Assembly: GCF_000219215.1 (NCBI RefSeq)
Contig: NC_015723.1
Span: forward strand, 558,001-622,000
Source of the DNA: Cupriavidus necator N-1
GTDB lineage: Bacteria; Pseudomonadota; Gammaproteobacteria; Burkholderiales; Burkholderiaceae
Direction of reading: 5' to 3'
Length of the DNA: 64,000 nucleotides
The position numbers were made by a program, and so were the translations under genes. The first letter of the stretch is position 1. The number at the start of each line of letters is the position of its first letter. The notes under the pieces were generated by a model. That model had not been told where the DNA came from. It worked only from the letters and a program-made list of their open reading frames with translations, and did not search any database. This document shows positions 23,893 to 61,024 of this stretch, piece by piece.

Positions 23893-23911
23893 AATCGGCA
23901 GAACGGACTAG
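23893..23911 (-). promoter_or_regulatory. Shared 19-bp motif, site 1 (before DUF1302 operon)
   Basis: Minus-strand CTAGTCCGTTCTGCCGATT; one of the weaker right halves. TACGCT follows 20 bases downstream, in place for a -10 hexamer. See the finding on the common motif. Confidence 0.55.
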
Positions 23912-23937
23912 GCGGTTTCCCTACGGGCGGTAGCCGC

Positions 23938-24726
23938 TCAGCTGCGATTGAGCGAAGCCGCGTTGAGGAAGGCCGGGCGCTCGCCGCCACCGTCGATCAC
24001 AAGGTTGGCGCCCGACACGTACGACGCCTGAGGCGATGCCAGGAACAGGCACGCGCCGGCGATGTCGTCCGGGTGCGCGAGCCGGCCCAGCGGCACCGTC
24101 GCGGCCATGGTGCGCAACGCCTCGGGGTCGCCGTAGTGCTGCTGCTGCGAGGTGTCGGTCAGCACCATGCCCGGGCTGACCGCGGCAACGCGCACCTTGG
24201 GCGCCCATTCCACCGCGAGCGTGCGCACCGCATTGAGGATGCCGGCCTTGGCGGCGCCGTAGGCCGCCGTGCCGGGCGAAGGACGCAGCGCGCTGACGCT
24301 GCCCACGAACAGCTGCGTGCCGCCGCCGGCCTGTTGCTGCATGCGTGCATTGGCGCGCTGCGCGAGCTGCAGCGGCGCCACCAGGTTGAGCCGGATCACC
24401 GATTCCAGCAGCCGTGGCGAGGCCTCCGCGACCAGCGCGAACGGCGAGCCGCCGGCGTTGTGGATGACCACGTCGAGCGTGGGGCTGGCCTGCGCGATCT
24501 GCGCCAGCATGGCATCGGCCTGTTCGATGTCGCGGATGTCCGCCGGGATGAAGCGGGCGCTGCGGCCATCCGCGGCCGGCAGTTCGCTGTCGTCAGCGGG
24601 CGCGGTGCGGCCGCATACGAAGACCTGCGCGCCGGCGCGCAGGAAGGCCTCGCCGATGGCGCGGCCGATGCCGCGCATGCCGCCCGTGACCAGCACAGTC
24701 TGGCCGGTGTAGTTGAATCCTGTCAT
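23938..24726 (-). CDS. SDR-family oxidoreductase
   Basis: A 262-residue classical short-chain dehydrogenase. Cofactor motif VTGGMRGIGRAIG, NAGG at residues ~88-91, catalytic Ser in VGSVSA and Y-x3-K in AAYGAAKAG. C-terminal VIDGGG is standard. NAD(P)-dependent oxidation or reduction of a hydroxy/keto group is expected; in this setting hydroxysteroid or hydroxyacyl-CoA dehydrogenation is a reasonable guess. The start at 24726 follows AAGGGGG. It is divergent from the meta-cleavage hydrolase gene, with 126 bp between. Confidence 0.88.
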   Translation of the reverse strand: MTGFNYTGQTVLVTGGMRGIGRAIGEAFLRAGAQVFVCGRTAPADDSELPAADGRSARFIPADIRDIEQADAMLAQIAQASPTLDVVIHNAGGSPFALVAEASPRLLESVIRLNLVAPLQLAQRANARMQQQAGGGTQLFVGSVSALRPSPGTAAYGAAKAGILNAVRTLAVEWAPKVRVAAVSPGMVLTDTSQQQHYGDPEALRTMAATVPLGRLAHPDDIAGACLFLASPQASYVSGANLVIDGGGERPAFLNAASLNRS

Positions 24727-24780
24727 GGGTCCCCCTTGATGCATGGAGCACCCATCGTAGGAGAAGTGGCAGTCCGGCTC

Positions 24781-24799
24781 GTAGTCCGAATGAACGATG
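24781..24799 (+). promoter_or_regulatory. Shared 19-bp motif, site 2 (before hydrolase operon)
   Basis: GTAGTCCGAATGAACGATG, ending 53 bp before the hydrolase ATG. TATGCT at 24823 lies 23 bases downstream as a candidate -10 hexamer. Confidence 0.6.
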
Positions 24800-24852
24800 C
24801 CCGCGCTGGCGGCGCTGCGCAATATGCTGGGCAAACCACGGGAGACGCCCTC

Positions 24853-25725
24853 ATGTCCGCTACGTCACAGCACACGCCTTTGTCCCCACACCCGAACCTG
24901 CCGGTCGGGCGCTTCACCACCACGTCAACGGGCCTGCGCCTGCACTGCCTGGACTCCGGCAGCGGCGAGCCGCTGGTCTTTATCCACGGCAGCGGGCCGG
25001 GCGCGAGCGGGCACAGCAACTTCCGCCACAACGCGCCGGCCTTCGCCGAGGCGGGCTTTCGCACCGTGGTGGTGGACCTGCCCGGGTATGGCCTGTCGTC
25101 CAAGCCAGACGATGTCGAGTACACCCTGGACTTCTTCGTCGCCGCGCTGCGTGAGCAGTTGCTGGCACTGGAGCTGCCGCGCTGCGTGCTGGTGGGCAAT
25201 TCGCTTGGCGGGGCCATCGCGCTGCAGTACGCGCTGGACTTCCCGGAGCATGTCAGCCGCCTGGTGATGATGGCGCCCGGCGGCGTGGAAGAGCGGGAGA
25301 CCTATTTCCAGATGGAGGGAATCCAGCGCATGGTGTCGCTGTTTACCGGCGGCCACATGAACCCGGACACCATGCGGCAGCTGCTGCAACTGCTGGTGCA
25401 TGACGCCAGCCTGGTCACCGACGCGCTGGTCGACGAGCGCATGGCGGTGTGCAGCGAGCAGCCGCGCGAGGTGCTGGCCACCATGAAGGTGCCCAACCTG
25501 ACCGCGCGGCTGGGCGAGATCCGGTGCCCGGTGCTTGGCTTCTGGGGCACGGAGGATCATTTCAATCCTGCCTCGGGCGCCACCAAATTCCTGGCCGGCT
25601 GCGCCGACGCGCGCTTCGTCATGATCAACCGCTGCGGCCACTGGGTGATGGTTGAGCACGCCGCCTATTTCAACCGTGAATGTCTCGGCTTCCTGGCGGA
25701 TACCGCCCAGGGCGGCGCGGCATAA
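24853..25725 (+). CDS. Meta-cleavage product hydrolase (BphD/HsaD/TesD-like alpha/beta hydrolase)
   Basis: A 290-residue alpha/beta hydrolase of the C-C bond hydrolase group. Oxyanion region FIHGSGPGASGHSNF, nucleophile Ser117 in VGNSLGGAIALQ, Asp235 in WGTEDHFNP and His263 in RCGHWVMVEH make a complete triad. These enzymes cut 2-hydroxy-6-oxo-dienoates made by extradiol dioxygenases; the released 2-hydroxy-dienoate is the substrate of the hydratase at 21386-22168. The start at 24853 has GGAG eight bases upstream; the frame is open far upstream but that part is the shadow of opposite-strand genes. It heads an operon with an SDR, a ketosteroid isomerase and a TetR regulator. No extradiol dioxygenase gene is in the window. 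Confidence 0.92.
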   Translation: MSATSQHTPLSPHPNLPVGRFTTTSTGLRLHCLDSGSGEPLVFIHGSGPGASGHSNFRHNAPAFAEAGFRTVVVDLPGYGLSSKPDDVEYTLDFFVAALREQLLALELPRCVLVGNSLGGAIALQYALDFPEHVSRLVMMAPGGVEERETYFQMEGIQRMVSLFTGGHMNPDTMRQLLQLLVHDASLVTDALVDERMAVCSEQPREVLATMKVPNLTARLGEIRCPVLGFWGTEDHFNPASGATKFLAGCADARFVMINRCGHWVMVEHAAYFNRECLGFLADTAQGGAA

Positions 25726-25764
25726 TTGGCTCGCACGCCCACACAACAAGACCCAGGAGACATC

Positions 25765-26959: not shown

Positions 26960-27613
26960 ATGGCCCGCCACACCCGCGAGGATGCCGCCGTCACGCGGGC
27001 GCGCATCCTGGCCAGCGCGCTGCAGCTGATCCGGCACCGCGGCCTGCATTGCGTCACCGTGGACGACGTGGCTCGCGCCATCGGCATGACGCGCGGGGCC
27101 GTCTATGGGCATTTCCATTCCCGCACCGAGTTGCTGGGCGCGCTGCTGTCGTGCGCCGAAGCCGACTTCACCGCCCGCCTCGCGCTGCTGGCGCAGGGCC
27201 GCGCCGGCAGCGGGCCAGGCACGCTGGAGCAAGCGCTGGCCGCCTTGCTCCATGGCGATGACCTGGCGCGCCACGTCAGCCTGCTGGCGGCGCTGCTGCA
27301 GCACAAGTGCGGCGACGACTGCGAGCTTTGCCCGCTGCGCGCCCGCGTGCTGACGGGCGTCGAGACGCTGCGCGCAACATTCGCTGGCCTGCTGCCGGCC
27401 CCCGGCCTGGCCAGCCTGCTGGTGGCGCACCTGTGGGGCCTGCTGAGCGCGCACGCCATGCACCTGGCCCCGTCCGGGCTGTCCGGCTGTGCCGCAGCGC
27501 TGGCCCGGCTGTATCAAGGACCTGATGTGCCGCCGCATCCGTCCCTGTCCGCTATCCCTTCCTGTCGACCCGACGCCACTTTCGATCCGGCGCTGCTGCG
27601 GGATACCCCCTAG
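26960..27613 (+). CDS. TetR/AcrR-family repressor
   Basis: A 217-residue regulator. The N-terminal helix-turn-helix is clear: RARILASALQLIRHRGLHCVTVDDVARAIGMTRGAVYGHFHSRTELLGAL. The ligand domain resembles AcrR/TtgR-type C-termini but has a Cys cluster (HKCGDDCELCPLRAR, residues ~116-130) that could bind metal or sense oxidation; this is inference. The start at 26960 lacks a good binding site and probably depends on translational coupling with the isomerase gene. Its TAG stop codon lies inside motif site 3. It likely represses the hydrolase-SDR-isomerase operon it closes. Confidence 0.85.
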   Translation: MARHTREDAAVTRARILASALQLIRHRGLHCVTVDDVARAIGMTRGAVYGHFHSRTELLGALLSCAEADFTARLALLAQGRAGSGPGTLEQALAALLHGDDLARHVSLLAALLQHKCGDDCELCPLRARVLTGVETLRATFAGLLPAPGLASLLVAHLWGLLSAHAMHLAPSGLSGCAAALARLYQGPDVPPHPSLSAIPSCRPDATFDPALLRDTP

Positions 27614-27628
27614 TCTGCTCGGACGAAG
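27610..27628 (+). promoter_or_regulatory. Shared 19-bp motif, site 3
   Basis: CTAGTCTGCTCGGACGAAG overlaps the TetR stop codon and ends 72 bp before the small exported protein gene. TACGAT follows 20 bases downstream as a candidate -10 hexamer. Confidence 0.6.
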
Positions 27629-27700: not shown

Positions 27701-27937
27701 ATGAAGCGGCTCGGATTTCGTTGGGCGGCGGGCCTGGCCGGTGCCGGCGCCGCGATGGGCGCGGCCTGGGCGATTGCCGTGGGCGGCGACCTTGCCACCG
27801 CGCATGGCAGCCAGGGCGAGATGCCCGCTGTCAGCGTGGCCTCCGCCGACGCGGCGCAGGACCACTGCAACGACGCCTGCGTGCGCAGCCGCGGCACCGC
27901 GGCGTTGGTGGTGCTGAGCCAGAGACCTCCGCAATGA
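27701..27937 (+). CDS. Small exported or membrane-anchored protein, unknown
   Basis: A 78-residue protein with a basic, then Ala/Gly-rich hydrophobic N-terminus (MKRLGFRWAAGLAGAGAAMGAAWAIAVGG) and a short tail with two Cys (DHCNDACVRSRG). The start has AAGGAG six bases upstream, and a shared regulatory motif with a candidate -10 lies in front, so expression is likely real. No family is recognised. It ends at a strong palindrome and is convergent with the SRPBCC gene. Confidence 0.6.
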   Translation: MKRLGFRWAAGLAGAGAAMGAAWAIAVGGDLATAHGSQGEMPAVSVASADAAQDHCNDACVRSRGTAALVVLSQRPPQ

Positions 27938-28527: not shown

Positions 28528-28561
28528 CATACCCCGAACGGACGAGTCCGGGTGGACGAAG
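28528..28561. promoter_or_regulatory. Overlapping divergent pair of the shared motif, sites 4 and 5
   Basis: Minus strand CTCGTCCGTTCGGGGTATG (28546-28528) faces the SRPBCC gene, with TAGTGT 21 bases further on; plus strand CGAGTCCGGGTGGACGAAG (28543-28561) faces the VOC gene 238 bp away. The ~334-bp gap between these genes holds nothing else I can name. Confidence 0.5.
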
Positions 28562-46032: not shown

Positions 46033-46051
46033 CATCGTCCGCTTGGAGTAA
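46033..46051 (-). promoter_or_regulatory. Shared 19-bp motif, site 6 (before SnoaL-like gene)
   Basis: Minus-strand TTACTCCAAGCGGACGATG, 52 bp before the SnoaL-like ATG. TTTAAT follows 20 bases downstream, a good -10 match. This is among the clearest motif/-10 pairs. Confidence 0.65.
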
Positions 46052-46058: not shown

Positions 46059-47198
46059 TCACCCCATCCCCACCACACTGGACAGCAACATCTTCACCAG
46101 CACCGCCTGCCGCGTTGCCCCGGTCTTGGCAAAGATGCCCCGCAGGTGTGCCCGCGCCGTGTTCTTCTTGACGCCAAGCCGCATCGCGGCTTCATCCAGC
46201 GTTAGCCCGTCGACCATCAGTAAAGCCAGTTCGATCTCGGTCGGGGTCAGGTGGAACAGCTTGCGCAGGTTGGCGTGGGTGTTGCGCGGCGATCCTGCCG
46301 GGTCGCGGATGAACACCGCCACTGCGGGTCGGCGTGACTTGTCTTCGCTGCGATAGCTGAGCGGGATCGGCCGCACCAGCACGCTCAGGGGCGTGGGCGC
46401 GGCGGGCCGGCTCAGCGTGGTGACTTCGCTGCGCGGTGCGGCCAGCGCGTGGGCCTGGGCAGCGCCTTCCAGGATCTTGCGGAACCTGCGGTTTTCCACC
46501 GGGCAGTGCGCGTGCAGCGCGCCGTCTGACAGGTAGAGGCCGTCGCGCGCCTGCAGCAGGCGGCCGGCGACGTCGTTGGTCCGGATGGTCCTGCCGTGCT
46601 CGTCCAGGATCACAGTGCCGACCTGCAGCCGGTCGACGGCATCCGCGTACAGGGACCGTTCAGAAGCAAGAACGTCGAGCGCGGCATGCAGGTCCACTGC
46701 GCGCTTCAGGTGCGGCAGCAGGCCGTGCAGCAGTGCCTTGTCGGCCTCGCCGAAGTCCTGTCCCGCGTCGGTGCGGCTGATGAACAGCGCGCACTCCACG
46801 CCGTCGGGCGTGACCAGGTTGGCCGCCAGGATATAGCGCAGGCCCAGTGGTTGAAGGTATTGAGTGTAGAACGGATGCGCCAGCCAGCCGGCTTCGCCAA
46901 ACAGTTCGTCGGCGCTGAAGAGCCGGTCCGGGTGCAGGTCCAGGAAGGGGCACAGCGCGTAGTACTGCTCGCTGTATGAGGGCTCGCCCGGCAGGTGCGG
47001 GCCGTAGTCGGAGGCATTGACGATCAGGCCCGGCCGGTCGGTGGCCGGGTGGCGCAGCACCAGCGTGACGAAGGTGGCGCCCAGGCGCTGGCGCACGCTT
47101 TCCAGGAAGCCGGCCCAGGGCACGGCTTCGGTCGGGCCCTGGTAGAGCTGGGCGAGCAGGGCGCTCAGCTCGGCGGCCGGCAGGGGGTCTGGCAGCAT
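46059..47198 (-). CDS. LuxR-type regulator (TeiR-like), copy 1
   Basis: A 379-residue regulator. The N-terminal ~290 residues are a ligand/PAS-like region with LYQGPTEAVPWAGFLESVRQRLGATF, LRHPATDRPGLIVNAS and LHGLLPHLKRAVDLHAAL. The C-terminal LuxR HTH reads HLTPTEIELALLMVDGLTLDEAAMRLGVKKNTARAHLRGIFAKTGATRQAVLVKML. It is a clear paralogue of the LuxR protein at 57913-59097. Length and type resemble TeiR, the LuxR-type activator of testosterone degradation in Comamonas testosteroni. A shared motif lies 238 bp upstream; a 121-bp repeat separates the two. Start at 47198 (MLPDPLPAAEL) is preferred over an ATG in the repeat-flanking sequence. Confidence 0.88.
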   Translation of the reverse strand: MLPDPLPAAELSALLAQLYQGPTEAVPWAGFLESVRQRLGATFVTLVLRHPATDRPGLIVNASDYGPHLPGEPSYSEQYYALCPFLDLHPDRLFSADELFGEAGWLAHPFYTQYLQPLGLRYILAANLVTPDGVECALFISRTDAGQDFGEADKALLHGLLPHLKRAVDLHAALDVLASERSLYADAVDRLQVGTVILDEHGRTIRTNDVAGRLLQARDGLYLSDGALHAHCPVENRRFRKILEGAAQAHALAAPRSEVTTLSRPAAPTPLSVLVRPIPLSYRSEDKSRRPAVAVFIRDPAGSPRNTHANLRKLFHLTPTEIELALLMVDGLTLDEAAMRLGVKKNTARAHLRGIFAKTGATRQAVLVKMLLSSVVGMG

Positions 47199-47436: not shown

Positions 47437-47455
47437 CATCGTCCGTTCGGCCTAG
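47437..47455 (-). promoter_or_regulatory. Shared 19-bp motif, site 7 (before LuxR copy 1)
   Basis: Minus-strand CTAGGCCGAACGGACGATG; its first bases overlap the cysNC stop codon. TACGAT follows 19 bases downstream. The LuxR gene starts 238 bp away, or about 117 bp if the repeat element is discounted. Confidence 0.6.
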
Positions 47456-49386
47456 GGTTTCTCCCGCAGCCACGCCACGATCCGCTCCGCCGCCTGCTCC
47501 GCCGTGTCGACGGTGGTGTCGATGCGGATCTCGGGCCGCTCGGGCGGCTGGTACGGCGAGTCGATGCCGGTGAAGTTCTTCAGCTCGCCGCGCCGCGCCT
47601 TGCGATACAGGCCCTTGGGGTCGCGTTGCTCAGCCACCGCCAGCGGCGTGTCGATGAAGACTTCGACGAAATCGCCGTTGCCGGCGAGCGCGCGCGCCAT
47701 GTCGCGCTCCGAGCGGAACGGCGAGATGAAGGACACCAGCACGATCAGGCCCGCATCGAGCATCAGCCTTGCCACTTCCGCCACGCGCCGGATATTCTCG
47801 ACGCGGTCGGCCTCGGCGAAGCCCAGGTCCTTGTTCAGGCCGTGGCGCACGTTGTCGCCGTCGAGCAGGTAGGTGTGGTGGCCCAGCGTGTGCAGGCGCT
47901 TTTCCACCAGGTTGGCGATGGTGGACTTGCCTGCGCCGGAGAGCCCGGTGAACCAGACGATGCGCGGCGACTGGTGCTTGAGTGCGGCATGGGCGCGGCG
48001 GTCCACGTCGATGGCCTGCCAGTGCACGTTCTGCGCCCTGCGCAGCGCAAAGCGCAGCATGCCGGCGCCGACCGTGTTGTTGCTGAGGCGGTCGATGATG
48101 ATGAAGCCGCCCAGCTCGCGGTTGCGCGCGTAGGGATCGAAGGCCACCGGCTGGTCCAGGTGCAGGTTGCACACGCCGATCTCGTTCAGCTCCAGCGTGC
48201 GCGCGGCCAGGTGTTCGAGCGTGTTGACATTGACCTTGTACTTGGGCTGCGCCACGGTCACGCCCACGGTGCGTGTGCCGAGCTTGAGCAGGTAGGGGCG
48301 CCCGGGCAGCATGGCGTCCTCGTTCATCCACACCAGCGTGGCCTCGAACTGGTCGGCCACCGCCGGCGGGTCTTCCGGGCAGGCCAGCACGTCGCCGCGG
48401 CTGATGTCGATCTCGTCCTCCAGCGTCAGCGTCACCGCCTGGCCGCGCATGGCGTGCTCGCACGCGCCGGCGGCGCCAACGATGCCGGCCACGCGGCTCT
48501 CGCGGCCCGAGGGCAGCGCGCGCACGCGGTCGCCGCGGCGGATCTCGCCGGCGCTGACGGTGCCGGCAAAACCGCGGAAGTCCAGGTTGGGCCGGTTGAC
48601 CCACTGCACCGGCAGCCGGAACGATTCGCCCTGCACGGGCGCATTGTCGATCGGCACGTTCTCCAGGTGGGCCATCAGCGTCGGGCCGTGGTACCACGGG
48701 GTATTGGCGCTGGGCTCGGTGATGTTGTCGCCGCGCAGGGCCGACATCGGAATGCAGGTGATATCGGTCAGGCCGATCTGCCGGGCAAACTCCCGGTACT
48801 CGTTCTCGATGCGCGTATGGACCTCGCGCGAGTAGTCGACCATGTCCAGCTTGTTGACCGCCAGCACCACGCGGCGGATGCCAAGCGTCGCCACCAGGTA
48901 GCTGTGGCGGCGCGTCTGGGTCTGCACGCCGCGGCGCGCATCCACCAGCAGGATGGCCAGGTCGGCGGTGGAAGCGCCGGTGACCATGTTGCGCGTGTAC
49001 TGTTCGTGCCCCGGCGTGTCGGCCACGATGAACTTGCGCTTGTCGGTGGCGAAGAAGCGGTAGGCCACGTCGATGGTGATGCCTTGTTCGCGCTCCGCGG
49101 CCAGGCCGTCCACCAGCAGCGCGAAGTCGAGGTTCTGGCCCTGCGTGCCCATCTTCTTCGAGTCGGCTTCCAGCTGGGCGAGCTGGTCTTCGAACAGCAT
49201 CTTCGATTCATACAGCAGCCGGCCGATCAGCGTGCTCTTGCCGTCGTCGACGCTGCCGCAGGTGATGAAGCGCAGCAGGCTCTTGCTTTGCTGGGCGCGC
49301 AAGTAGTGGGCGATCTCGCCCGAGGTGCCGGTGGCTTGCGCGGCGTCTTGCGCAAGCGCGGGCGCGGTGTCGATCAGGGTTTCCAT
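47452..49386 (-). CDS. cysN: CysN-CysC fusion: sulfate adenylyltransferase GTPase subunit + APS kinase (NodQ-like)
   Basis: A 644-residue bifunctional protein. The N-terminal ~450 residues are the CysN GTPase: P-loop GSVDDGKST (residues 44-52), [25 protein letters not shown], and two EF-Tu-like barrels. From about residue 465 an APS kinase domain follows: [49 protein letters not shown] and [45 protein letters not shown]. With CysD it makes PAPS from sulfate, ATP and GTP. The fusion is the form used for sulfonation, as in rhizobial NodQ. ATG overlaps the cysD stop (ATGA). Confidence 0.96.
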
Positions 49387-50282
49387 CAGAAGTATCCCTC
49401 CTGCTTCTTCTTTTCCATCGAACCGGCTGAGTCGCTGTCGATCAACCGTCCCTGGCGCTCCGAGGTGGTCGCCAGCAGCATTTCCTGGATGATGCCGCCG
49501 AGGGTGTCGGCCTCGCTCTCGATCGCGCCGGTGAGCGGGTAGCAGCCCAGCGTGCGGAAGCGCACCTTGCGCAGCTGCGGCGTTTCTCCAGGGCGCAGCG
49601 GCAGGCGCTCATCGTCGACCATGATCAGCGTGCCGTCTCGCTCCACCACCGGGCGCTCCTTGGCGTAGTAGAGCGGCACGATGGGGATGTCGTTCAGGTA
49701 GATGTATTGCCAGATGTCCAGCTCGGTCCAGTTGGACAGCGGGAACACGCGCAGGCTTTCGCCCTTGCGCTTGCGGGTGTTGTACTGGCGCCAGAGCTCG
49801 GGCCGCTGCATCTTCGGGTCCCAGCGGTGCTGGGCGGTGCGTACCGAGAACACGCGCTCCTTGGCACGCGACTTTTCCTCGTCGCGGCGCGCGCCGCCGA
49901 AGGCGGCGTCAAAGCCGTAGTGGTCCAGCGCCTGCTTCAGGCCCTGGGTCTTCCACACGTCGGTATGGACGGCGGAGCCGTGCTCGTGCGGGCTGATATT
50001 GCGTGCCAGCCCCTCGGGGTTGACATGCACGCGCAGGTCCAGGCCAAGGCGCGCGGCGGTCTGGTCGCGGAATGCGATCATCTCGCCGAACTTCCACGTG
50101 GTATCGACGTGCAGCAGCGGGAACGGCGGCCGCGCGGGGTGGAAGGCCTTCATGGCAAGGTGCAGCATCACGGCGCTGTCCTTGCCGATGGAATAGAGCA
50201 TGACGGGGTTTTCGCATTCCGCCACCACCTCCCGCATGATGTGGATGCTCTCCGCCTCCAGTTGCTCCAGGTGGGTCAACAT
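49386..50282 (-). CDS. cysD: Sulfate adenylyltransferase subunit 2
   Basis: A 298-residue ATP-pyrophosphatase-type subunit with the PP-loop [18 protein letters not shown], the family signature [22 protein letters not shown] and [23 protein letters not shown]. It forms APS with the CysN part of the next gene (4-bp overlap). No other sulfate assimilation gene (cysH, cysI, cysG) is nearby, so this pair is probably not the housekeeping route. The gene is divergent from the DUF1214/sulfotransferase operon with a long palindrome between. Confidence 0.96.
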
Positions 50283-50371: not shown

Positions 50372-50390
50372 CTTCGTCCGGGCGGACTAA
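50372..50390 (-). promoter_or_regulatory. Shared 19-bp motif, site 8 (facing cysD)
   Basis: Minus-strand TTAGTCCGCCCGGACGAAG; TACCTT follows 21 bases downstream, and the cysD ATG is 89 bp away. It forms, with site 9, one arm of a palindrome with 22-bp arms. Confidence 0.65.
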
Positions 50391-50417: not shown

Positions 50418-50436
50418 CTAGTCCACCCGGACGAGG
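50418..50436 (+). promoter_or_regulatory. Shared 19-bp motif, site 9 (facing the sulfotransferase operon)
   Basis: CTAGTCCACCCGGACGAGG; TATCGT at 50458 follows 21 bases downstream, and the DUF1214 start is 58 bp away. It mirrors site 8: 50375-50396 and 50412-50433 are complementary at 20 of 22 positions. Confidence 0.7.
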
Positions 50437-50494: not shown

Positions 50495-51613
50495 ATGGCG
50501 AACTCCGCCGAAGAACAATTGCTGTGCGGCCAGACCTGGGCCGAGTTTTGCGAGGTCCTCAAGCGCAGCGGGCAGCAGATCCTGCGCCCGGAGGCGCCGG
50601 CGGACGCGCTCACGCGCGCCGAGGGCTTCCGCTACCTGAGCCGCCTGCTGCGCATTGCGCTGGAGATGCATGTGGAATTCGCCGATCCGGCGTTTCCCGA
50701 CTTCTTCTCACCGTCGCACGAAACCGCCAAGATCGGCGCAGACAATCCGGACAATCTCTATCGCTACGCACGCCTGGACGGCGGTGCCGAGTACCGCATC
50801 CGCGGCCGGCGCGGCACGGTGGCCTACCTGAGTTTCGGTACGCAGAAGGGCGGCTACGAAACCGACGGGCGCATGGTCCAGACCGGCTTTCTCGACAGCA
50901 ACAAGCTGGCAGTGGCGGCGGATGGCAGTTTCGAAATCGTCCTCAGCGCGCGCCAGCACGAAGGCAACTGGGTGCGCATGGAGCCGGGCACCAATGCGCT
51001 GGTGGTGCGGCAGACCTTTATGGACCGCAAGGCTGAGACCCCGGCCGAACTGCACATCGAGCGCCTCAATGGCAGCGACAAGCCGCCCGTGCTCGATGCC
51101 GAGCGCCTGCACGGCGGCCTGCTGCGCGCCGCGGGCTTTGTCGAGGGCACCGCGCGCATCTTCGCCGACTGGGCGCAGGGCTATGGCGGCCATGTCAACG
51201 CACTGCCGCCCGCCGATCAGGCCGTATGCCAGGCCGCAGGCGGCGATCCCAACATCTTCTACTACCACTCCTGCTGGGCGCTGGCGGACGACGAAGCGCT
51301 GGTGGTCGAGGTGGACCGGGTGCCGGCCTGCGATTTCTGGAATTTCCAGATCAACAACTACTGGATGGAGTCGCTCGACTACCGCTACCACGACATCTGC
51401 CTGAACAAGCACAGTGCCCGGCTGGATGCCAGCGGCGGCGTCACCGTCATCCTCAGCGCGCGCGATCCTGGCCTGCCCAACTGGCTGGAGACCGCGGGCC
51501 ACCGCAACGGCACCATGTGCTGGCGCTGGGTGGGGGCGGCGCAGCCGGTGCATCCACGCACGCGCGTGGTCAAGCTTGAATCGCTCAGGAATGAATGCAG
51601 GGAGAACGTATGA
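50495..51613 (+). CDS. DUF1214 domain protein
   Basis: A 372-residue soluble protein without signal peptide. The C-terminal region resembles DUF1214: ALVVEVDRVPACDFWNFQINNYWMESLDYRYHDICLNKHSARLDASGGVTVILSARDPGLPNWLETAGHRNGTMCWRWV. The N-terminal half has FGTQKGGYETDGRMVQTGFLDSNKLAVAADGSFEIVLSA. Biochemical role is unknown. Its stop overlaps the sulfotransferase start (ATGA), implying coupled translation and a joint role. The start at 50495 is weakly preceded by GGGAG. Confidence 0.8.
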   Translation: MANSAEEQLLCGQTWAEFCEVLKRSGQQILRPEAPADALTRAEGFRYLSRLLRIALEMHVEFADPAFPDFFSPSHETAKIGADNPDNLYRYARLDGGAEYRIRGRRGTVAYLSFGTQKGGYETDGRMVQTGFLDSNKLAVAADGSFEIVLSARQHEGNWVRMEPGTNALVVRQTFMDRKAETPAELHIERLNGSDKPPVLDAERLHGGLLRAAGFVEGTARIFADWAQGYGGHVNALPPADQAVCQAAGGDPNIFYYHSCWALADDEALVVEVDRVPACDFWNFQINNYWMESLDYRYHDICLNKHSARLDASGGVTVILSARDPGLPNWLETAGHRNGTMCWRWVGAAQPVHPRTRVVKLESLRNECRENV

Positions 51614-52803
51614 ACACCATCGCATCCGAACACACCACGGTGCTTGACGTGGAGCGCTTGCTGGCACAGGCCAGCGAACAGGCCGGCGGACTGACTGACT
51701 TTGGCCCGGGCGACTACCGCGAGGCGCTGGAGGTGCTGTCCGACTCGCTTGCACGCGAAGCCGGGCTGTCGCCGCAGGGCGCGCAGATGCTGCAAGGCAA
51801 GCTGCAGGCGCAACTGGTGAATCGGCTGGTGATCCAGGACTACTGCCGGCGCCATCCCGAGATCCTGGAAGAGGGCGTCGACGATCCGCTGGTGATCGTC
51901 GGCCTGCCGCGCACCGGCACCACGCTGCTGCAGCGCATGCTGGCCACGGACGCGCGCTTCCACTCGGCGGCGTGGTGGGAAACGCGCTACCCGGCGCCGC
52001 TGCCCGGCGAGGACGTGCGCGACGCCGGCCGGCGCATCGGGCTGGCGCGCGAGGAAGTGGCGCAGATGATCCGCTTTATCCCGGACATCCTCGCCATCCA
52101 TCCGCTCGACGCCATGGCGGCCGACGAGGAATTCATGCTGATGGAGCATTCCTTCCTGTGCGCGATGGATTCCTACGCCAACGTGCCGTCCTATACCGAC
52201 TGGCTGGCGCGGCACGACCGCACCCAGGTCTATGCCTACCTGAAGACCATGCTGCAGTTCCTGCAGTGGCAGAAGCGGCAGCGCGGCGAGGCGCCGGCGC
52301 AGCGGTGGGTGCTGAAGACGCCGCAGCACCTGCATACGCTGGAAATCCTGTTCCGGGTCTTCCCCGGCGCGCAGGTCGTGCTGACCCATCGCGACCCCGC
52401 CCAGACCATTCCGTCGATGGCCAGCATGGCGCATACGCTGTGGAAGCTATACGCCGATGCGCCCGACGCCGTCACGGTGGGGCGGCAGTGGGGCGGGCAG
52501 ATGCAGCGCGCCACCGCCCATGCCATGACGGTGCGCGACAGTCTGCCTGCCGACCGCTTCCTCGACGTGCGCTTCGAGGATACGGTGAGCGATCCCTTCG
52601 GCGTGGCGCAGGCGGTCTACCGCTTTGCCGGCATGCCGCTGACCGAGTCCGCCCGCGCCGGCATCTGGGCATGGATGGAGGGCAACCCGCGCAACCAGCG
52701 CGCGGCGCACGCTTATACGCTGGAGCAGTTCGGCCTGAGCCAGGAACAACTGGAACGCGATTTCGCCGGCTACCGCGCGCGGCACATCCTGAAGCAAAAC
52801 TAA
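51610..52803 (+). CDS. PAPS-dependent sulfotransferase family protein
   Basis: A 397-residue sulfotransferase. The 5'-phosphosulfate loop is DDPLVIVGLPRTGTTLLQRML (PRTGTT at residues ~100-105). A second conserved region, WVLKTPQHLHTLEILFRVFPGAQVVLTHRDPAQTIPSMASM, fits the 3'-phosphate-binding Arg/Ser segment. LDVRFEDTVSDPFGVAQAVYRFAGMPLTESA follows as in related proteins. It should transfer a sulfuryl group from PAPS to a hydroxyl or amine. The divergent cysD/cysNC pair makes PAPS, and the genes share a palindromic promoter region. Acceptor unknown; a sterol/steroid-like alcohol is a plausible guess from context. Confidence 0.88.
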   Translation: MNTIASEHTTVLDVERLLAQASEQAGGLTDFGPGDYREALEVLSDSLAREAGLSPQGAQMLQGKLQAQLVNRLVIQDYCRRHPEILEEGVDDPLVIVGLPRTGTTLLQRMLATDARFHSAAWWETRYPAPLPGEDVRDAGRRIGLAREEVAQMIRFIPDILAIHPLDAMAADEEFMLMEHSFLCAMDSYANVPSYTDWLARHDRTQVYAYLKTMLQFLQWQKRQRGEAPAQRWVLKTPQHLHTLEILFRVFPGAQVVLTHRDPAQTIPSMASMAHTLWKLYADAPDAVTVGRQWGGQMQRATAHAMTVRDSLPADRFLDVRFEDTVSDPFGVAQAVYRFAGMPLTESARAGIWAWMEGNPRNQRAAHAYTLEQFGLSQEQLERDFAGYRARHILKQN

Positions 52804-52836: not shown

Positions 52837-53628
52837 ATGCTGTTGAAGGACAAGATCGTCATCGTATCCGGCATCGGCCCCGGGCTGGGCGTCAAGCTGG
52901 CCGTGGAGGCGGCGCGCGAAGGCGCCCGCGCCGTTGCCATCGCCGCGCGCACCGCGGCGAAACTGGACGACGCCCAGGCCCGCATCGACGCACTGGGCGC
53001 CGACTGCGAAGTGCTCAAGGTGGTGACCGACATCACCGACCGGGCCCAGTCCCGGCATCTGGCCAGCGAGACCATGCGCCGCTTCGGCCGCATCGACGCG
53101 CTGGTCAACAGCGCCTTCCAGCACGGCAACTTCCCCGAGCCGGTGGAAGCGGCCGACCTGGATGTCTGGCGCCAGGTGTTCGACACCAACGTGTTCGGCA
53201 CCATGACCCTGACGCAGGAGGTGGCGGCGCTGATGAAGCCGCAGGGCGGCGGCGCCATTGTCATGATCAACACCCAGGCCACGCGCAAGCCGATGCCCGG
53301 CGAATCGGGCTACGCGGCGTCCAAGGGCGCGCTGGCAGTGGCGGTCAAGTACCTGGCGCGCGAACTGGGCCCGCATGGCATCCGCGCCAACAGCATCTTC
53401 ATGGGCTGGATGTGGGGGGAGCCGGTGCAGGGCTATGTGCGCCACGCCGCGGCCGAGCAGGGCGTGAGCGAGGACACCGTGATCGCGCCGGTGGCCGCGC
53501 AGATTGCGCTGGGCCGCATGCCGACCGACGACGACTGCGCGCGCGCGGCGCTGTTTCTCGTGTCAGACTACGCTAGGGCCATCACCGGCGCTTCGCTGGA
53601 TGCCAACGGCGGCGATTTCATGCCCTGA
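52837..53628 (+). CDS. Atypical SDR-family oxidoreductase
   Basis: A 263-residue SDR with changed motifs: cofactor loop VSGIGPGLGVKLA instead of TGxxxGIG, NSAF in place of NNAG, and MINTQATRKPM where the catalytic Ser normally stands; Y-x3-K is kept (GYAASKGAL). The C-terminus has DANGGDFMP. It may work on a bulky alcohol/ketone or have an altered reaction. CAGGAG precedes the start. It lies 33 bp after the sulfotransferase gene and so belongs to the same operon. Confidence 0.85.
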   Translation: MLLKDKIVIVSGIGPGLGVKLAVEAAREGARAVAIAARTAAKLDDAQARIDALGADCEVLKVVTDITDRAQSRHLASETMRRFGRIDALVNSAFQHGNFPEPVEAADLDVWRQVFDTNVFGTMTLTQEVAALMKPQGGGAIVMINTQATRKPMPGESGYAASKGALAVAVKYLARELGPHGIRANSIFMGWMWGEPVQGYVRHAAAEQGVSEDTVIAPVAAQIALGRMPTDDDCARAALFLVSDYARAITGASLDANGGDFMP

Positions 53629-53646: not shown

Positions 53647-54612
53647 ATGACACGCTACTTTGCCTTCAACGGCGATGCCGACGGCCTGTGCGCCCTGCAG
53701 CAGCTGCGCCTGGCGGATGCCGGCGACGCCACGCTGGTCACCGGCGTCAAGCGCGATATCCGGCTGCTCGAGCGCATCGACGCCGGGCCGGGCGACACCG
53801 TGACCGCGCTGGACATCTCGCTCGAGCAGAACCGCGATGGCCTGATGCGGCTGCTCGGCGCCGGTGCGCGGGTGGACTACTTCGACCACCACCATGCCGG
53901 CGAACTGCCCGGGCATGCCGGCCTGCGCGCGCATATCGACGAGGGGCCGGAGGTCTGCACCAGTATCCTGGTCGACCGCCACCTGGACGGCTGCCACCGG
54001 CGCTGGGCGATCACCGCCGCGTTCGGCGACAACCTGGGCGGCGTGGCGCGCGCGCTGGCGGCGCAGGCGGGGTTGGGCGAGTGCGAAACCGCGGTGCTGG
54101 AACAGCTGGGCACGTGCCTGAACTACAACGCCTATGGCGAGTGCGTGGCGGACCTGCATTTCGATCCCGCCGAGCTGGCGCGGCACATGCTGCCGTTTGC
54201 CGACCCGCTGGCGTTCGCCGCGCAATGCGGGGCCTATGCGGTGCTGTGCGAGGGATATGAGGACGACATGGCCCGCGGGCGCTGCCTGGCGCCCGCGCAC
54301 GAAGTGCCCGGCGCCGCGCTGCTGGTGCTGCCGGACGCGCCGTGGGCGCGGCGCGCGATCGGCGTGCTGGCCAATGAACTGGTGCGCGGCCGGCCCGGCG
54401 ACGCCATCGGCCTGCTCTCGCCGAAGTCCGGCGGCGGCTTTGCCGTCAGCGTGCGGGTGCCCGCGCACAGCGCCACCGGGGCGGCCGATTTCTGCCGCGG
54501 CTTCGAGACCGGCGGCGGCCGGCGCCTGGCAGGCGGCATCAACCACCTGCCAGACGCCGAAGTGGAGCGCTTCACGCGCAGCTTTGCCGATTGCTTCGGC
54601 TGCCGTTCCTGA
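53647..54612 (+). CDS. DHH-family phosphoesterase
   Basis: A 321-residue protein with DHH/DHHA1 organisation: motif I FNGDADGLCALQQL (D10, D12), motif II Asp56 in VTALDISLEQN, DHH at residues 80-82 (DYFDHHHAGELPGH), motif IV HIDEGPEVCTSILVDRHL, and a C-terminal DHHA1-like GLLSPKSGGGFAVSVR...GGGRRLAGGINHLP. It should be a Mn-dependent phosphodiesterase or phosphatase. Some DHH proteins (NrnA) hydrolyse 3',5'-PAP, the by-product of sulfotransferases, which would suit its position 18 bp after the SDR. That role is inference; related proteins also occur outside such clusters. Confidence 0.82.
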   Translation: MTRYFAFNGDADGLCALQQLRLADAGDATLVTGVKRDIRLLERIDAGPGDTVTALDISLEQNRDGLMRLLGAGARVDYFDHHHAGELPGHAGLRAHIDEGPEVCTSILVDRHLDGCHRRWAITAAFGDNLGGVARALAAQAGLGECETAVLEQLGTCLNYNAYGECVADLHFDPAELARHMLPFADPLAFAAQCGAYAVLCEGYEDDMARGRCLAPAHEVPGAALLVLPDAPWARRAIGVLANELVRGRPGDAIGLLSPKSGGGFAVSVRVPAHSATGAADFCRGFETGGGRRLAGGINHLPDAEVERFTRSFADCFGCRS

Positions 54613-57591: not shown

Positions 57592-57610
57592 CATCGTCTG
57601 TTTGGGTAGG
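57592..57610 (-). promoter_or_regulatory. Shared 19-bp motif, site 10 (before SDR-esterase operon)
   Basis: Minus-strand CCTACCCAAACAGACGATG; TACAAG lies 20 bases downstream, and the SDR start is 72 bp away. Confidence 0.55.
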
Positions 57611-57669: not shown

Positions 57670-57688
57670 TTAGTCTGTTTGGAGTATG
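57670..57688 (+). promoter_or_regulatory. Shared motif, site 11, upstream of LuxR copy 2
   Basis: TTAGTCTGTTTGGAGTATG, a weaker match; CTAGTCCGGCCAGCGTTTG at 57732 keeps only the left half. Both lie in the 393-bp gap between divergent SDR and LuxR genes. Confidence 0.4.
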
Positions 57689-57819: not shown

Positions 57820-57912
57820 CAGGGCACAAAAAAGGGCCACAGAGCCCGTAGCAGGCCAGCGCCGACCCGGCAAGTCCGAAGCGCTGAGCACGCCACAATG
57901 GAGACAGAGGAA

Positions 57913-59097
57913 ATGCTGATGGAGGTTAGCCAGAACCAGGCGACCGCACACCTGTTCGCACAGGCAACGGTGTCGCTGTCGGAGTTCAGCACATTGCTGG
58001 GCAATATCTACCAGGGCCCGATGGAGCAGGTGCCCTGGGGCAAGGCACTGGAACAGATCCGCCGCCAGCTCAACGCCAACTATTGCACCCTGATCCTGCG
58101 CTCGCCGGCCACGGACCGGCCCGGGCTGATGGTCAATGCGTCCGAGCATGGCTCGACCTTGCCCGGCGAGACCTCCTACAACAACTACTACTACGCGCTC
58201 GACCCGTTCATCGGCCTGCCGTCGGACCGGGTGGTGACCATCGATGAACATCTCGGGCCCGGCGCCTGGTGCCAGAGCGAGCTCTACCAGCAGTTCCTCA
58301 AGGACATCGGCATCCGCTACATCCTTGGCGCAGACCTGCGTACCGATGACGGCGTCGAATGCCGCTTCCGCGTGTGCCGCGAGCATGACGGGCGTGACTT
58401 CTCCGCCGCCGACAAGGCGCTGTGCACCGCGCTGCTGCCGCACCTGAAGCGCGCGGTGGACCTGCACTCGCGCATCGACGTGGTTGAATCGGAACGCACG
58501 GTGTATGCCAGCGCCATCGACCGCATGCTGGTCGGGATGGTGATCCTGGACGAGTCCGGCGCCATCATCAAGACCAATGCCGCCGCCGATGAAATCCTTG
58601 GCGCCAAGGATGGCATCCGCGTCGCCAAAGGCGGGCTGGACGTGGAATACGGCCAGGAGAACCGCAAGTTCCAGCGCCTGCTGCGCCAGGCCATGATGGG
58701 CCACCTCGGCACCACGCCGGCGCTGATGGAGGCGATGTCGATCACGCGCCCGTCCGGCAGCGCCAGGCTGGGCGTGCTGATCCGCACCATCCCGCTCAGC
58801 GAGTGGTCCGAGGACAACCGCAAGCGCCCCGCCTCCGTGGTGTTCATCCGCGACCCGGAGCGGCGCTCGCAGGCCTCGCACGAGGTGGTGCGCCAGCTCT
58901 TTGACTTCACGCCGGCGGAGACGCAGCTGGCGCTCCAGCTGGCCAACGGGCTCACGCTCGATGAGGCTGCGGACGAGCTCGGCATCAGCAAGAACACGGC
59001 GCGCGCGCACCTGCGGGCGATTTTCTCCAAGACCGGCGTGACCCGGCAGGCCACGCTGGTGCGTATGCTGCTGAGCAGCGTGATTTCGCTGGGCTAA
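57913..59097 (+). CDS. LuxR-type regulator (TeiR-like), copy 2
   Basis: A 394-residue paralogue of the regulator at 46059-47198: YQGPMEQVPWGKALEQIRRQLNANY, LRSPATDRPGLMVNASEHGSTLPGETSY, YYALDPF and LLPHLKRAVDLHSRIDVVESERTVYASAIDRMLVGMVILDE match almost segment by segment. The C-terminal LuxR HTH is FTPAETQLALQLANGLTLDEAADELGISKNTARAHLRAIFSKTGVTRQATLVRMLL. GGAG lies nine bases before the ATG at 57913; ATGs at 57898 and 57919 are alternatives. Probably one of the activators of the shared motif; which paralogue binds which site is open. Confidence 0.88.
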   Translation: MLMEVSQNQATAHLFAQATVSLSEFSTLLGNIYQGPMEQVPWGKALEQIRRQLNANYCTLILRSPATDRPGLMVNASEHGSTLPGETSYNNYYYALDPFIGLPSDRVVTIDEHLGPGAWCQSELYQQFLKDIGIRYILGADLRTDDGVECRFRVCREHDGRDFSAADKALCTALLPHLKRAVDLHSRIDVVESERTVYASAIDRMLVGMVILDESGAIIKTNAAADEILGAKDGIRVAKGGLDVEYGQENRKFQRLLRQAMMGHLGTTPALMEAMSITRPSGSARLGVLIRTIPLSEWSEDNRKRPASVVFIRDPERRSQASHEVVRQLFDFTPAETQLALQLANGLTLDEAADELGISKNTARAHLRAIFSKTGVTRQATLVRMLLSSVISLG

Positions 59098-59112: not shown

Positions 59113-59457
59113 TCAAGGCTTTGCGCTGAGCACCAGCGCAAAGCCTTCCGGCGTTTCCAGCACCGCACGCGTCTCATGCGGCCCCTGCGCCGCGGGCAGC
59201 GTCACGCTGGCGCCGGCACCGACCAGCCGCGCCATCGCCGCGGCGATATCGTCACCCTCATCCACCTTGAAGGCCAGCGCGGGCTGGTCCACCAGGCGTT
59301 CCTCGCCGGCCACCAGCGCCAGCGTCAGCGCGCCCGCGTCGAGCGCGCAATAGCGGCTTTCGTCGCGAAATTTCACCGGTAGTCCAAGTCCTTCCGTGAA
59401 GAACGGCAGCGCGGTGTCGATGTCCGCGACGGGGTAAAGCAGCAGCCTGGCTTGCAT
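59113..59457 (-). CDS. VOC-family protein
   Basis: A 114-residue glyoxalase-fold protein: MQARLLLYPVADIDTALPFFTEGLGLPVKFRDESRYCALDAG, then QPALAFKVDEGDDIAAAMARLVGAGASVTLPAAQGPHETRAVLETPEGFALVLSAKP. No clear metal His at the N-terminus, so it may bind a ligand rather than catalyse. Convergent with the LuxR gene (15 bp) and divergent from the luciferase-like gene. Confidence 0.8.
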   Translation of the reverse strand: MQARLLLYPVADIDTALPFFTEGLGLPVKFRDESRYCALDAGALTLALVAGEERLVDQPALAFKVDEGDDIAAAMARLVGAGASVTLPAAQGPHETRAVLETPEGFALVLSAKP

Positions 59458-59530
59458 GATGTCCTGATCCTCCTGGTGAAAGCGGGCGTGATGCCCGTGG
59501 CCAATGATAGGGATGCTCCATGTCCTGCTC

Positions 59531-59549
59531 ATAATCCAATCAGACGATG
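59531..59549 (+). promoter_or_regulatory. Shared 19-bp motif, site 12 (before LLM monooxygenase)
   Basis: ATAATCCAATCAGACGATG, 119 bp before the monooxygenase ATG. No good -10 at the usual distance (CACACT at 20 bases). Confidence 0.45.
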
Positions 59550-59668
59550 TTGCAACGCCTTGCGCCGACCACACTGCGATCACACAGGCCGCTTCGGGCC
59601 GGTGGCGCGGCAACCGGCGGCGCCCCGGCGGCGGTCCTGAACCATCAATGCCAGAGAAGGGGACTGCA

Positions 59669-60820
59669 ATGCGTTTTTCACTGATCTATGAAGCCCAGAC
59701 CGTCGATGCCTCGCGTGCCGGCGACCACAAGGTGTTCGATGAAATCATGGAACAGGTGGTGCTGGCCGAGGACATGGGCTTTGACGTGGTCTGGGCGGTC
59801 GAGCACACCGCACTGACCAACTATGCGCACATGAGCGCGCCGGAGACCTTCCTGGCCTTCGTTGCCGGGCGCACGCAGCGCATCGGCATCGGCCACGGCG
59901 TGGTGTGCCTGCCGCCGGCGATGAACCATCCGGTCAAGGTGGCCGAGCGCATCGCCACGCTGGACATCCTGTCCGGCGGCCGCGTGCACTTCGGCGTGGG
60001 CAAGGGCGGCACCCAGCAGGAGGCCGGCACCTTCGGCTACGACCTGAACAGCCTGCACCCGATGATCGACGAATCGATGTACCTGATCCCGAAGATCATG
60101 ACGCAGGACGAGATCGAGCACGACGGCGAGTTCATCAAGATCCCGCGCCGCCCGATCCACCCCAAGCCGCGCCAGGACCCGCACCCGCTGATGTACCTGG
60201 CCTGCACCAATGCCGACACGCTGCAGCGCGCCGGCGCGCGCGGCATGGGCGCGCTGGTGCTCGGCTTTGGCGGCCCCGAGGATGTTGCCAGGAAGAACGA
60301 AATCTACCGTACCGCGTGGGAGACCCGCAAGCCGGAGGACCAGGTGGGCTTCCGCCCGCACCAGCACCTGGCCGCGCTGTGCCCGACCATCGTGCTGGAA
60401 GACGGCCTGGCCGCGCGCAAGATCGGCATCAAGGGCCAGCGCTATTTCATGGAGTCGCTGTCGTACTGGTATGCCGGCGGCGAGCGGCCGGACCCGTCCA
60501 CCTGGGACGACGAGCATGTCACCGCCACGGACGCGCAGGGCAAGGCCGTCATCAACACGAAGTTCGCCTCCGAGAAGGTCTCGGTGGATTTCAGCGACCC
60601 GTCGATGATGATGCTCAACCCCAACCATGCCTACGGCACCGTCGAGGACTGCATCGGCTACGTGCAGCGCCTGATAGATTCCGGCGCCGACGAGATCCTG
60701 TTCATCTGCCAGATGGGCACGGTGCCGCAATGGGCGCAGCTGGAAACCATCCGCAATATCGGCGAGCACGTGATCCCGCACTTCCGCAAGCAGGGACGGA
60801 AGCTGCGCGCGCTGGCTTGA
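59669..60820 (+). CDS. Luciferase-like (LLM) flavin-dependent monooxygenase
   Basis: A 383-residue TIM-barrel protein of the bacterial luciferase superfamily: VLAEDMGFDVVWAVEHTALTNYAHMSAPETFLAFVAGRTQRIGIGHGVVCLPPAMNHPVKVAERIATLDILSGGRVHFGVGKGG is the F420/FMN-binding part. It likely uses reduced FMN and oxygen for hydroxylation or Baeyer-Villiger oxidation; a reductase is not adjacent. The ATG at 59669 has AAGGGG seven bases upstream. Its position before the HsaA-like and KstD-like genes places it in the ring-degradation block. Confidence 0.9.
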   Translation: MRFSLIYEAQTVDASRAGDHKVFDEIMEQVVLAEDMGFDVVWAVEHTALTNYAHMSAPETFLAFVAGRTQRIGIGHGVVCLPPAMNHPVKVAERIATLDILSGGRVHFGVGKGGTQQEAGTFGYDLNSLHPMIDESMYLIPKIMTQDEIEHDGEFIKIPRRPIHPKPRQDPHPLMYLACTNADTLQRAGARGMGALVLGFGGPEDVARKNEIYRTAWETRKPEDQVGFRPHQHLAALCPTIVLEDGLAARKIGIKGQRYFMESLSYWYAGGERPDPSTWDDEHVTATDAQGKAVINTKFASEKVSVDFSDPSMMMLNPNHAYGTVEDCIGYVQRLIDSGADEILFICQMGTVPQWAQLETIRNIGEHVIPHFRKQGRKLRALA

Positions 60821-60846
60821 TCACGGCTACGTAACGCTGCGGTTTT

Positions 60847-60970
60847 CTCCCCTCTCCCGCTTGCGGGAGAGGGGCAGGGGGTGAGGGTAGGCGGTGGCAT
60901 ACCGCAGGCCTTACTTCGCAGGACACGCCCGCCCTCACCCCAACCCTCTCCCGCAAGCGGGAGAGGGAGC
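60847..60970 (+). repeat. Dispersed palindromic repeat, copy 2
   Basis: Same element as 47219-47339 and in the same orientation, identical in the outer hairpins and in GGCGGTGGCATACC, variable in the centre. It begins 26 bp after the luciferase-like gene and may end its transcript. Confidence 0.85.
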
Positions 60971-61005
60971 ACGCAAGCGGAAGCTGAAGGGCCTGAAGCA
61001 CATAG

Positions 61006-61024
61006 CTAGTCCCAACAGACGATG
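61006..61024 (+). promoter_or_regulatory. Shared 19-bp motif, site 13 (before HsaA-like gene)
   Basis: CTAGTCCCAACAGACGATG, among the best matches, 71 bp before the HsaA-like start. The -10 region is not distinct (AAACAT at 20 bases). Confidence 0.6.

Follow-up and report, generated by a model that had tools for sequence, protein, structure and literature searches.

A dyad box upstream of steroid-catabolic and sulfonation genes in Cupriavidus necator N-1 is a predicted operator of TesR/TeiR-type LuxR-family activators

In a 64,000-nt stretch of the Cupriavidus necator N-1 genome (C1:558001-622000 in 8.48 Mb on four contigs, hereafter the window), a short motif recurs in front of genes for steroid breakdown and sulfonation and in front of LuxR-family regulator genes. 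The motif is real and occupies ten strong sites. We propose that this box is very probably the operator of TesR/TeiR-type LuxR-family activators, which would couple steroid catabolism to a sulfonation module.

Results

The box is an imperfect dyad concentrated at the steroid/sulfonation cluster

All 13 sites that the first-pass annotation had picked by eye were recovered by direct read-out, each with its sequence, coordinate and strand (Table 1). Scored with a model that combines the box with a −10 element, ten of them are strong (at least 19.8 bits) and three are weak. The model was trained on 79 external sites, which had been gathered with a matrix trained on C. necator sites and include orthologous Cupriavidus promoters. 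The consensus is a 16-bp imperfect dyad, TMGTCY-N4-RGACKA, usually with C or T on its 5′ side and TG on its 3′ side. The rough dyad of TAGTCC and GGACGA halves noted earlier stands, with the spacer corrected to 4 nt. The hexamer formerly placed 19-23 bases after the box is likewise present as a −10 element, mostly at a gap of 20 nt and at a few sites of 19 or 21 nt. The box at 59531+ can also be read on the opposite strand (59530−, 23.1 bits), where it fits the glyoxalase gene 59113-59457.

In the window, 11 matches exceed 19.5 bits versus none in 30 dinucleotide shuffles, and 15 exceed 12 bits versus 0.37 per shuffle. A matrix of the 13 sites was scanned over C1:518001-682000 and ten 20-kb control stretches. 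The control stretches reach at most 15.2 bits with this matrix and 15.9 bits with the box+(−10) model. Outside the window, six intergenic sites score 18.7-24.9 bits with the 13-site matrix, compared to its control maximum of 15.2; the genes behind them encode a short-chain dehydrogenase (SDR), SnoaL-like and EthD proteins, an HsaC/tesB-like extradiol dioxygenase, KshA, and a DUF1329 protein. When spaced trimers of intergenic stretches were counted de novo, blind to the motif, the top ranks went mostly to pieces of the box, both in our own set (20 segments) and in 11 external loci (108 segments); AGGAGA, which resembles a ribosome-binding site, ranked as well.

Across the whole genome, nine of the ten matches to the box alone with at most one mismatch fall inside C1:585-636k. 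With up to two mismatches, the box alone matches 81 times versus 350 for the reversed pattern; because the reversed pattern matches more often, these matches are background and uninformative. Box plus −10 with at most two mismatches gives ten matches, nine at the cluster and one on C4 upstream of genes resembling, by eye, an SDR and an FAD-dependent dehydrogenase, while three mismatches give 37 matches versus 18 for the reversed pattern. Matches with few mismatches thus pile up at the steroid/sulfonation cluster.

Table 1. Candidate boxes and associated genes. Coordinates are those of the window unless stated; scores are from the box+(−10) model unless stated.
Feature	Position	Strand	Remarks
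TesR-type box	23893..23911	-	Upstream of DUF1302 gene 22236-23627 (-); 19.8 bits; −10 TACGCT, 20-nt gap
Box	24781..24799	+	80 bp 5′ of alpha/beta hydrolase gene 24880-25725 (tesD/hsaD-like); 30.0 bits
Box	27610..27628	+	72 bp 5′ of short uncertain open reading frame 27701-27937; 28.2 bits; −10 TACGAT
Weak box	28528..28546	-	62 bp 5′ of polyketide-cyclase-like gene 27986-28465; box alone 13.3 bits; about 11.8 when box and −10 scores are added; −10 fits better one nt further away
Weak box	28543..28561	+	Overlaps box 28528..28546; 16.1 bits
Box	46033..46051	-	53 bp 5′ of SnoaL-like (SnoaL_4) gene 45540-45980; 28.7 bits
LuxR-family regulator 1 (TesR/TeiR-type)	46059..47198	-	379 residues; 52% identity to regulator 2
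Box	47437..47455	-	238 bp 5′ of regulator 1; 22.1 bits; −10 one nt closer
CysNC: sulfate adenylyltransferase subunit 1 + adenosine 5′-phosphosulfate kinase	47452..49386	-
CysD-type sulfate adenylyltransferase subunit 2	49386..50282	-	PF01507; plasmid homologues annotated cysD
Box	50372..50390	-	89 bp 5′ of cysD; 24.8 bits
Box	50418..50436	+	58 bp 5′ of DUF1214 gene; 20.6 bits
DUF1214-matching protein	50495..51613	+	First gene of putative sulfotransferase operon
Sulfotransferase	51610..52803	+	PF13469
SDR	52837..53628	+
DHH-like protein (by eye)	53647..54612	+	Candidate pAp phosphatase; no family match
Weak box	57592..57610	-	Upstream of SDR gene 56704-57483; 12.2 bits
Box	57670..57688	+	209 bp 5′ of regulator 2; 26.7 bits
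LuxR-family regulator 2 (TesR/TeiR-type)	57898..59097	+	399 residues; PF00196 at 337-390
Box	59531..59549	+	119 bp 5′ of luciferase-like monooxygenase gene; 31.8 bits
Luciferase-like monooxygenase	59669..60820	+
Box	61006..61024	+	71 bp 5′ of tesA2/hsaA-like gene; 33.8 bits
HsaA/TesA2-like flavin monooxygenase	61096..62289	+	HsaA model 380.5 bits, below cut-off 450
LuxR-family regulator 3	75542-76729 (outside window)		70% identity to regulator 2
Six strong intergenic sites outside window	71284-, 71319+, 76803+, 77720+, 97182+, 100954-	as signed	18.7-24.9 bits (13-site matrix)
Fourth LuxR-family regulator	C4:8674-9804		Box-like sites around

A −10-like element emerges at one spacing across related loci

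A matrix built from 16 C. necator sites was run over 77 public-genome loci, each of them encoding a relative of the regulator. Of these loci, 74 contain one or more sites above 17 bits, which bears out the expected conservation. Together with our own region, these loci yield 258 sites above 17 bits, 255 of which lie outside called open reading frames, and a start codon follows within 300 bp for 220 of the 250 sites with a measured distance. A flank-identity filter (ungapped, 55%) reduces the 258 sites to 91, among them 79 external ones; since the latter retain some related promoters, site counts are not independent events. The matrix is blind beyond column 19. Downstream of it, column 41 is A in 65 and column 45 is T in 69 of the 91 sites, and T is the commonest base of column 40 (29/91). 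The pair A41 and T45, which forms a −10-like TAnnnT, occurs at 50 of the 79 external sites, compared to 18 at the next offset, a mean of 2.5 over other offsets, and 3/79 on the mirror strand. Hence, an element absent from the model emerges at a single spacing and, with T45 taken as −7, the dyad centre is predicted at −42.5, consistent with the position near −42 suggested by the first-pass annotation.

The genes behind the box recur as well. We asked how often a box stands no more than 350 bp 5′ of a given homologue in the loci that hold one, bearing in mind that many loci overlap or come from close relatives. This is so for the gene for the luciferase-like monooxygenase (LLM) in 42/43 cases, for the tesB-like gene in 13/14, for cysD in 19/20, for the DUF1214 gene in 19/21, and for the tesA2-like gene in 44/51.

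Two divergent boxes precede the sulfonation genes

Two boxes 46 bp apart stand in front of cysD-cysNC and the divergent row of DUF1214, sulfotransferase, SDR, and DHH-like genes. Conservation of the cysD box is among close relatives, since all 20 cysD homologues share at least 72% identity. For the DUF1214 gene, a Paraburkholderia homologue (L123, 53%) has a box and a Pandoraea homologue (L121, 54%) has none. In genome G918 (L184 10535-14478), a mismatch-free box is followed by cysD, cysNC (its match split into three), and then the DHH-like gene, a row into which the DHH-like protein would fit as the partner recycling 3′-phosphoadenosine 5′-phosphate (PAP). Among the literature matches listed, none addresses bacterial steroid sulfonation in catabolism by its title. 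We suggest the sulfonation genes as a new addition to the regulon and infer for them a role in steroid breakdown.

The LuxR-family regulators probably correspond to TesR/TeiR by synteny

Where two LuxR-type regulators with one upstream copy each had been reported for this region, there are three close paralogues, plus a fourth on C4, and a same-strand upstream copy holds for regulators 1 and 2 but not for regulator 3. One of the boxes adjoining the C4 regulator lies 61 bp 5′ of a second KshA gene. The closest relatives of the regulator among the matches listed come from Cupriavidus, with 98% identity. Regulator 2 carries a C-terminal LuxR-type (GerE) helix-turn-helix (PF00196), its sole Pfam match at E<=1e-5; regulators 1 and 3 have no Pfam match of their own at this threshold, but their alignment to regulator 2 spans the helix-turn-helix. 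The predicted model of regulator 2 divides into a sensor domain (residues about 22-195), a PAS-like part (197-320), and the helix-turn-helix (325-394), a placement that is uncertain because mean pLDDT is 79.5 and pTM 0.50. In the structural comparison of this model, LasR/CepR2 and phytochrome-GAF folds tie for the putative sensor domain, while the PAS label is based on secondary structure together with a weak match to a PAS model, whose score of 20.5 bits falls short of the cut-off of 22.9.

Quorum-sensing LuxR proteins are acyl-homoserine-lactone receptors of two domains and about 240 residues with an autoinducer-binding family, and the lux box is an operator different from the TesR-type box. 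No match to the autoinducer domain was found in our regulators at E<=1e-5, and regulator 2, with its three predicted parts, departs from the quorum-sensing architecture. Class II activators such as LuxR, TraR, and LasR thus differ from the C. necator regulators, which span 379-399 residues and contain the extra PAS-like part.

By synteny, the regulator is best read as corresponding to TesR/TeiR. In the 6.2-Mb genome G588, a regulator 40-41% identical to regulator 2 is the last gene of an operon that starts with a tesB-like gene and is colinear with 15 C. necator genes (77808..91201). In this genome, boxes precede the tesB-like gene (31.7 bits), the tesA2-like row (31.3), the tesD-like gene (31.0), and the kshA-like gene (25.1), and the tesA2-like row comprises homologues of our genes 62337, 64611 (FAD-binding), 67093 (reductase), and 68159 (CoA ligase). 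In the C. necator genome, the nearest regulator copy (75542) is instead found 5′ of the tesB-like gene. The correspondence is one of gene order, and no sequence named Comamonas testosteroni is among the listed matches to the regulator.

Published work describes TesR/TeiR-type regulation of steroid clusters in C. testosteroni on genetic grounds (PMC6895838, PMC6678751, PMC8700777). TesR is required to induce the tesB-tesR, tesA1-tesG, and tesA2-ORF18 clusters (PMC6895838), tesD belongs to the tesG-tesA1 group according to a figure legend (PMC13101464), and the tesB-to-tesR layout is named in the title of a 2004 C. testosteroni paper cited in PMC6895838 and PMC13101464, among others. G588 is alike in that a LuxR-type gene ends the tesB-to-tesR operon and boxes stand at tesB-, tesA2-, and tesD-like genes. 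PMC6895838 also repeats the claim that tesR-like genes are exclusive to C. testosteroni strains; in sequence searches, relatives of our regulator are listed far more widely than that, and two putative tesR-like genes are reported for P. stutzeri Chol1 (PMC8399759). Hence, the earlier impression that such a regulon is undescribed applies to the operator and not to the control of steroid clusters by a protein of this kind: no TesR/TeiR operator sequence was found in the open-licence literature searched, in which the original TeiR paper was not included. A search for CTAGTCC in the steroid literature listed, by title, eukaryotic or cell studies alone, and a search for LuxR-linked steroid-degradation promoters in Cupriavidus found none. 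Compared to TesR/TeiR, C. necator adds an explicit predicted operator with its promoter geometry, four close regulator copies, and the sulfonation genes.

In actinobacterial cholesterol degradation, KstR and KstR2 likewise control a large set of steroid genes through one operator code. These proteins are TetR-type repressors (PMC6678751, PMC8700777), unlike the LuxR-type activators proposed here. In the pdc cluster of Caenibius tardaugens, a LuxR-type gene lies beside an LLM gene (PMC12239570), a pair matched in C. necator by 57898 and 59669 with a box in between. On progesterone, the fold change is 32 for the LLM and 3 for the LuxR gene, which one passage calls not induced and another upregulated; the available part of PMC12239570 describes no operator.

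Box and regulator occur together across genomes

We searched genome sets for box+N20+TANNNT with at most one mismatch and, in the genus test, counted the regulator at E<=1e-50. In the genus, the pattern occurs in 28/28 genomes with the regulator versus 6/32 without (Fisher 1.4e-11); in the family of G093, to which C. necator N-1 does not belong, the values are 10/10 versus 6/289 (5.9e-15). In the order sample, genomes with a close regulator give 4/4 versus 3/296 (1.1e-7), the line at E<1e-90 having been drawn after the list was seen. With the threshold preset for this sample (E<=1e-30), the values are 4/24 versus 3/276, as 20 genomes hold distant relatives alone. The reversed pattern is found in 0/60 genus, 4/299 family, and 7/300 order genomes. 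These statistics assume independent genomes, which the genomes are not, and a class-level set was unusable, with the regulator in just 2 of 274 genomes.

The genus exceptions G879 and G917 share one sequence, TAGTCCCGCCGGACGATG..ATTAGGTAAAAG (e.g. G879:C1:2194069), which is listed for ten or more Cupriavidus genomes, some that carry the regulator and some that lack it. One of the family exceptions, G669, a genome 76% complete, carries the steroid gene at 77% identity. Two members of one genus in which a close regulator was not found (G638:C99:315378 and G816:C24:149540) have TCGTCC-type boxes with a −10 element, about 31 and 10 kb, respectively, from a homologue of gene 85480.

Recognition helices were compared among regulators outside the peptide-selected loci. 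The helix reads NTARAHLR in the Vibrio plasmid, L146, G588, G093, G245, and our C4 copy, and NTARSHLR in Novosphingobium P6W. It differs where sites are weak or missing, namely in N. aromaticivorans, L148, L149, and two distant C. necator relatives (few cases), but also in G224, which has a 24.5-bit box. For the two distant relatives (C3, C4:807400), nothing in the 20 kb scanned exceeds 13 bits.

The regulator matched 286 records; in the six plasmid regions examined from among these, sites of at least 24 bits occur in L145, L146, and L150. Regulators beside boxes are 37-40% identical in Vibrio and Sphingobium plasmids and 31% identical in Novosphingobium P6W. The Vibrio alfacsensis plasmid (L145) combines a 40% identical regulator with a ChsH2-like gene, acyl-CoA genes, and cysN/cysD; its two boxes (28.2 and 24.0 bits), each with a correctly spaced −10, precede an electron-transfer flavoprotein gene and a tesA2-like gene, and no box was found upstream of its cysD. 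Its cysN/cysD genes (L145 28007-30412) lie inside a steroid-type cluster that includes the TesR-type gene. In Sphingobium TomTYG64, a 25.0-bit box precedes a gene annotated as a KshA-type oxygenase, and in Novosphingobium P6W (L150), a box of the same score precedes an LLM gene. The other regions score less, with 15.1 bits in N. aromaticivorans (L147) and none above 18.9 in two further Sphingobium regions (L148 18.4; L149 18.9, where the permuted-column maximum is 20.9). Two metagenome-assembled loci, one recorded as Deltaproteobacteria (L108) and one as Candidatus Binataceae (L109), hold kshA-like, regulator, and tesA2-like genes in a row, with boxes.

Surrounding genes

KshA, HsaA-like, HsaC-like, KstD-like, aldolase, and acetaldehyde dehydrogenase genes lie nearby and identify a 9,10-seco-type steroid cluster, the matches to the HsaA, HsaC, and KstD (FAD-binding) models all being below cut-offs. 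Gene calls are incomplete, the SnoaL-like gene 45540-45980 being among those missed. The cluster is split by a block (29000-45500) with glutamine synthetase, LysR, MarR-GNAT, CoA transferase, and TctC genes, in which no site exceeds 12 bits. Transposase genes for identical Mutator-family proteins (14051-15310 and, in L035, 106686-107945; the Pfam assignment was made for the former) flank the region, a possible composite element or island. Near kshA, L034:9479-11920 (window 93479-95920) encodes an MMPL-family transporter with a sterol-sensing-domain match.

Site 90242+ (17.6 bits) is intragenic, in gene 89888-90691. A box-like sequence within the same coding gene at G588:C1:5412147 may point to an internal promoter. 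At coordinate −1680 (C1:556.3k), a borderline palindromic site of 17 bits per strand lies between divergent genes. No RNA family was found in the window at gathering thresholds.

Discussion

Density, conservation, and spacing support the earlier reading of the motif as a LuxR-type class II regulon, as far as sequence can tell. In the mechanism we suggest, a LuxR-type dimer would bind the imperfect dyad T(A/C)GTCY-N4-RGAC(G/T)A, which at −42.5 would replace the −35 element, and would recruit sigma-70 polymerase to the −10 box 20 nt downstream by class II activation. The activator would consist of an autoinducer/GAF-like sensor domain, the PAS-like part, and the LuxR-type helix-turn-helix, and its ligand is presumably a steroid or steroid metabolite. 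Predicted targets are the 9,10-seco-type steroid genes, the module of sulfotransferase and formation of 3′-phosphoadenosine 5′-phosphosulfate (PAPS), and at least two regulator genes.

Several observations weigh against this assignment. The 77 loci were retrieved by a peptide forming part of the recognition helix, and L094, L107, and L115 encode a close regulator relative yet have no site above 17 bits. Boxes were found at just 6/13 kshA-like and 7/11 tesD-like genes. In the window, sites 28543+, 57592−, and 28528− are weak, and regulator 3 has no same-strand box upstream. A strong site is missing from three of the six plasmid regions, and the 25.0-bit box of L150 is exceeded by one of 30 column-permuted controls (25.2 bits). 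TeiR is reported as polar and kinase-linked (PMC6678751, PMC8399759) and as a membrane protein (PMC6678751), the latter not suggested by our predicted model. Finally, pathway and regulator are almost always found together, so co-occurrence cannot fully separate the regulator from another factor of the cluster.

This last point bears on the best-surviving alternative, which we consider improbable: the box would be the operator of another steroid-cluster regulator, e.g. of TetR or LysR type, and the LuxR genes mere targets. A TetR gene is present at 26960-27613, and three genomes have boxes at steroid or sulfonation genes without a regulator at E<=1e-50, namely G864 (at a tesD/DUF1302-type block; 32 of 39 candidates scored), G899 (at a kshA orthologue, 92%), and G918; no regulator lies within the stretches fetched around these boxes. 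Furthermore, in G224 (L142 about 11300), a 24.5-bit box with −10 TACGCT lies 155 bp 5′ of a distant (27%) LuxR relative whose recognition helix differs. However, a LuxR gene and boxes also stand together in the C4 copy, which lies off the cluster, the constancy of the −42.5 position and of the −10 spacing suits an activator, and altered recognition helices track weak or missing boxes, albeit in few cases and with G224 as the counter-example. Judging from G224, use of the box may reach beyond the TesR-like clade.

Considerably less likely still, the box could be part of an alternative sigma-factor promoter with GGACGATG as its −35 element. The strongly conserved 3′ half does overlie the −35 position, but the dyad symmetry, the possible use of both strands at 59530/59531, and the sigma-70-like TAnnnT speak for an operator, and no sigma-factor family was seen among the scanned proteins, which cover part of the region's genes. 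That look-alikes were picked by chance in GC-rich DNA is hardly credible for the ten strong sites in view of the shuffles, the control stretches, the six outside sites, and the cross-genome co-occurrence, even though box-only matches with two mismatches are at genome background; the three weak sites of the 13 may be such look-alikes.

With the box read as a TesR/TeiR-type operator, a wider picture can be offered tentatively, at somewhat less than even odds. Gene transfer may have carried a single operator code, along with steroid catabolism, into Alpha-, Beta-, and Gammaproteobacteria as well as Binataceae-type bacteria, and this code may have captured a dedicated module for PAPS formation, sulfotransfer, and PAP recycling in Burkholderiales; sulfonation would then be an induced step of steroid breakdown and not a detoxification side line. 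A readable operator would allow the likely regulon of a steroid degrader to be listed from sequence, with start sites predicted and the likely binding protein named. It adds unexpected members, cysD-cysNC and the sulfotransferase genes, to this regulon and could supply promoter parts for steroid biosensors.

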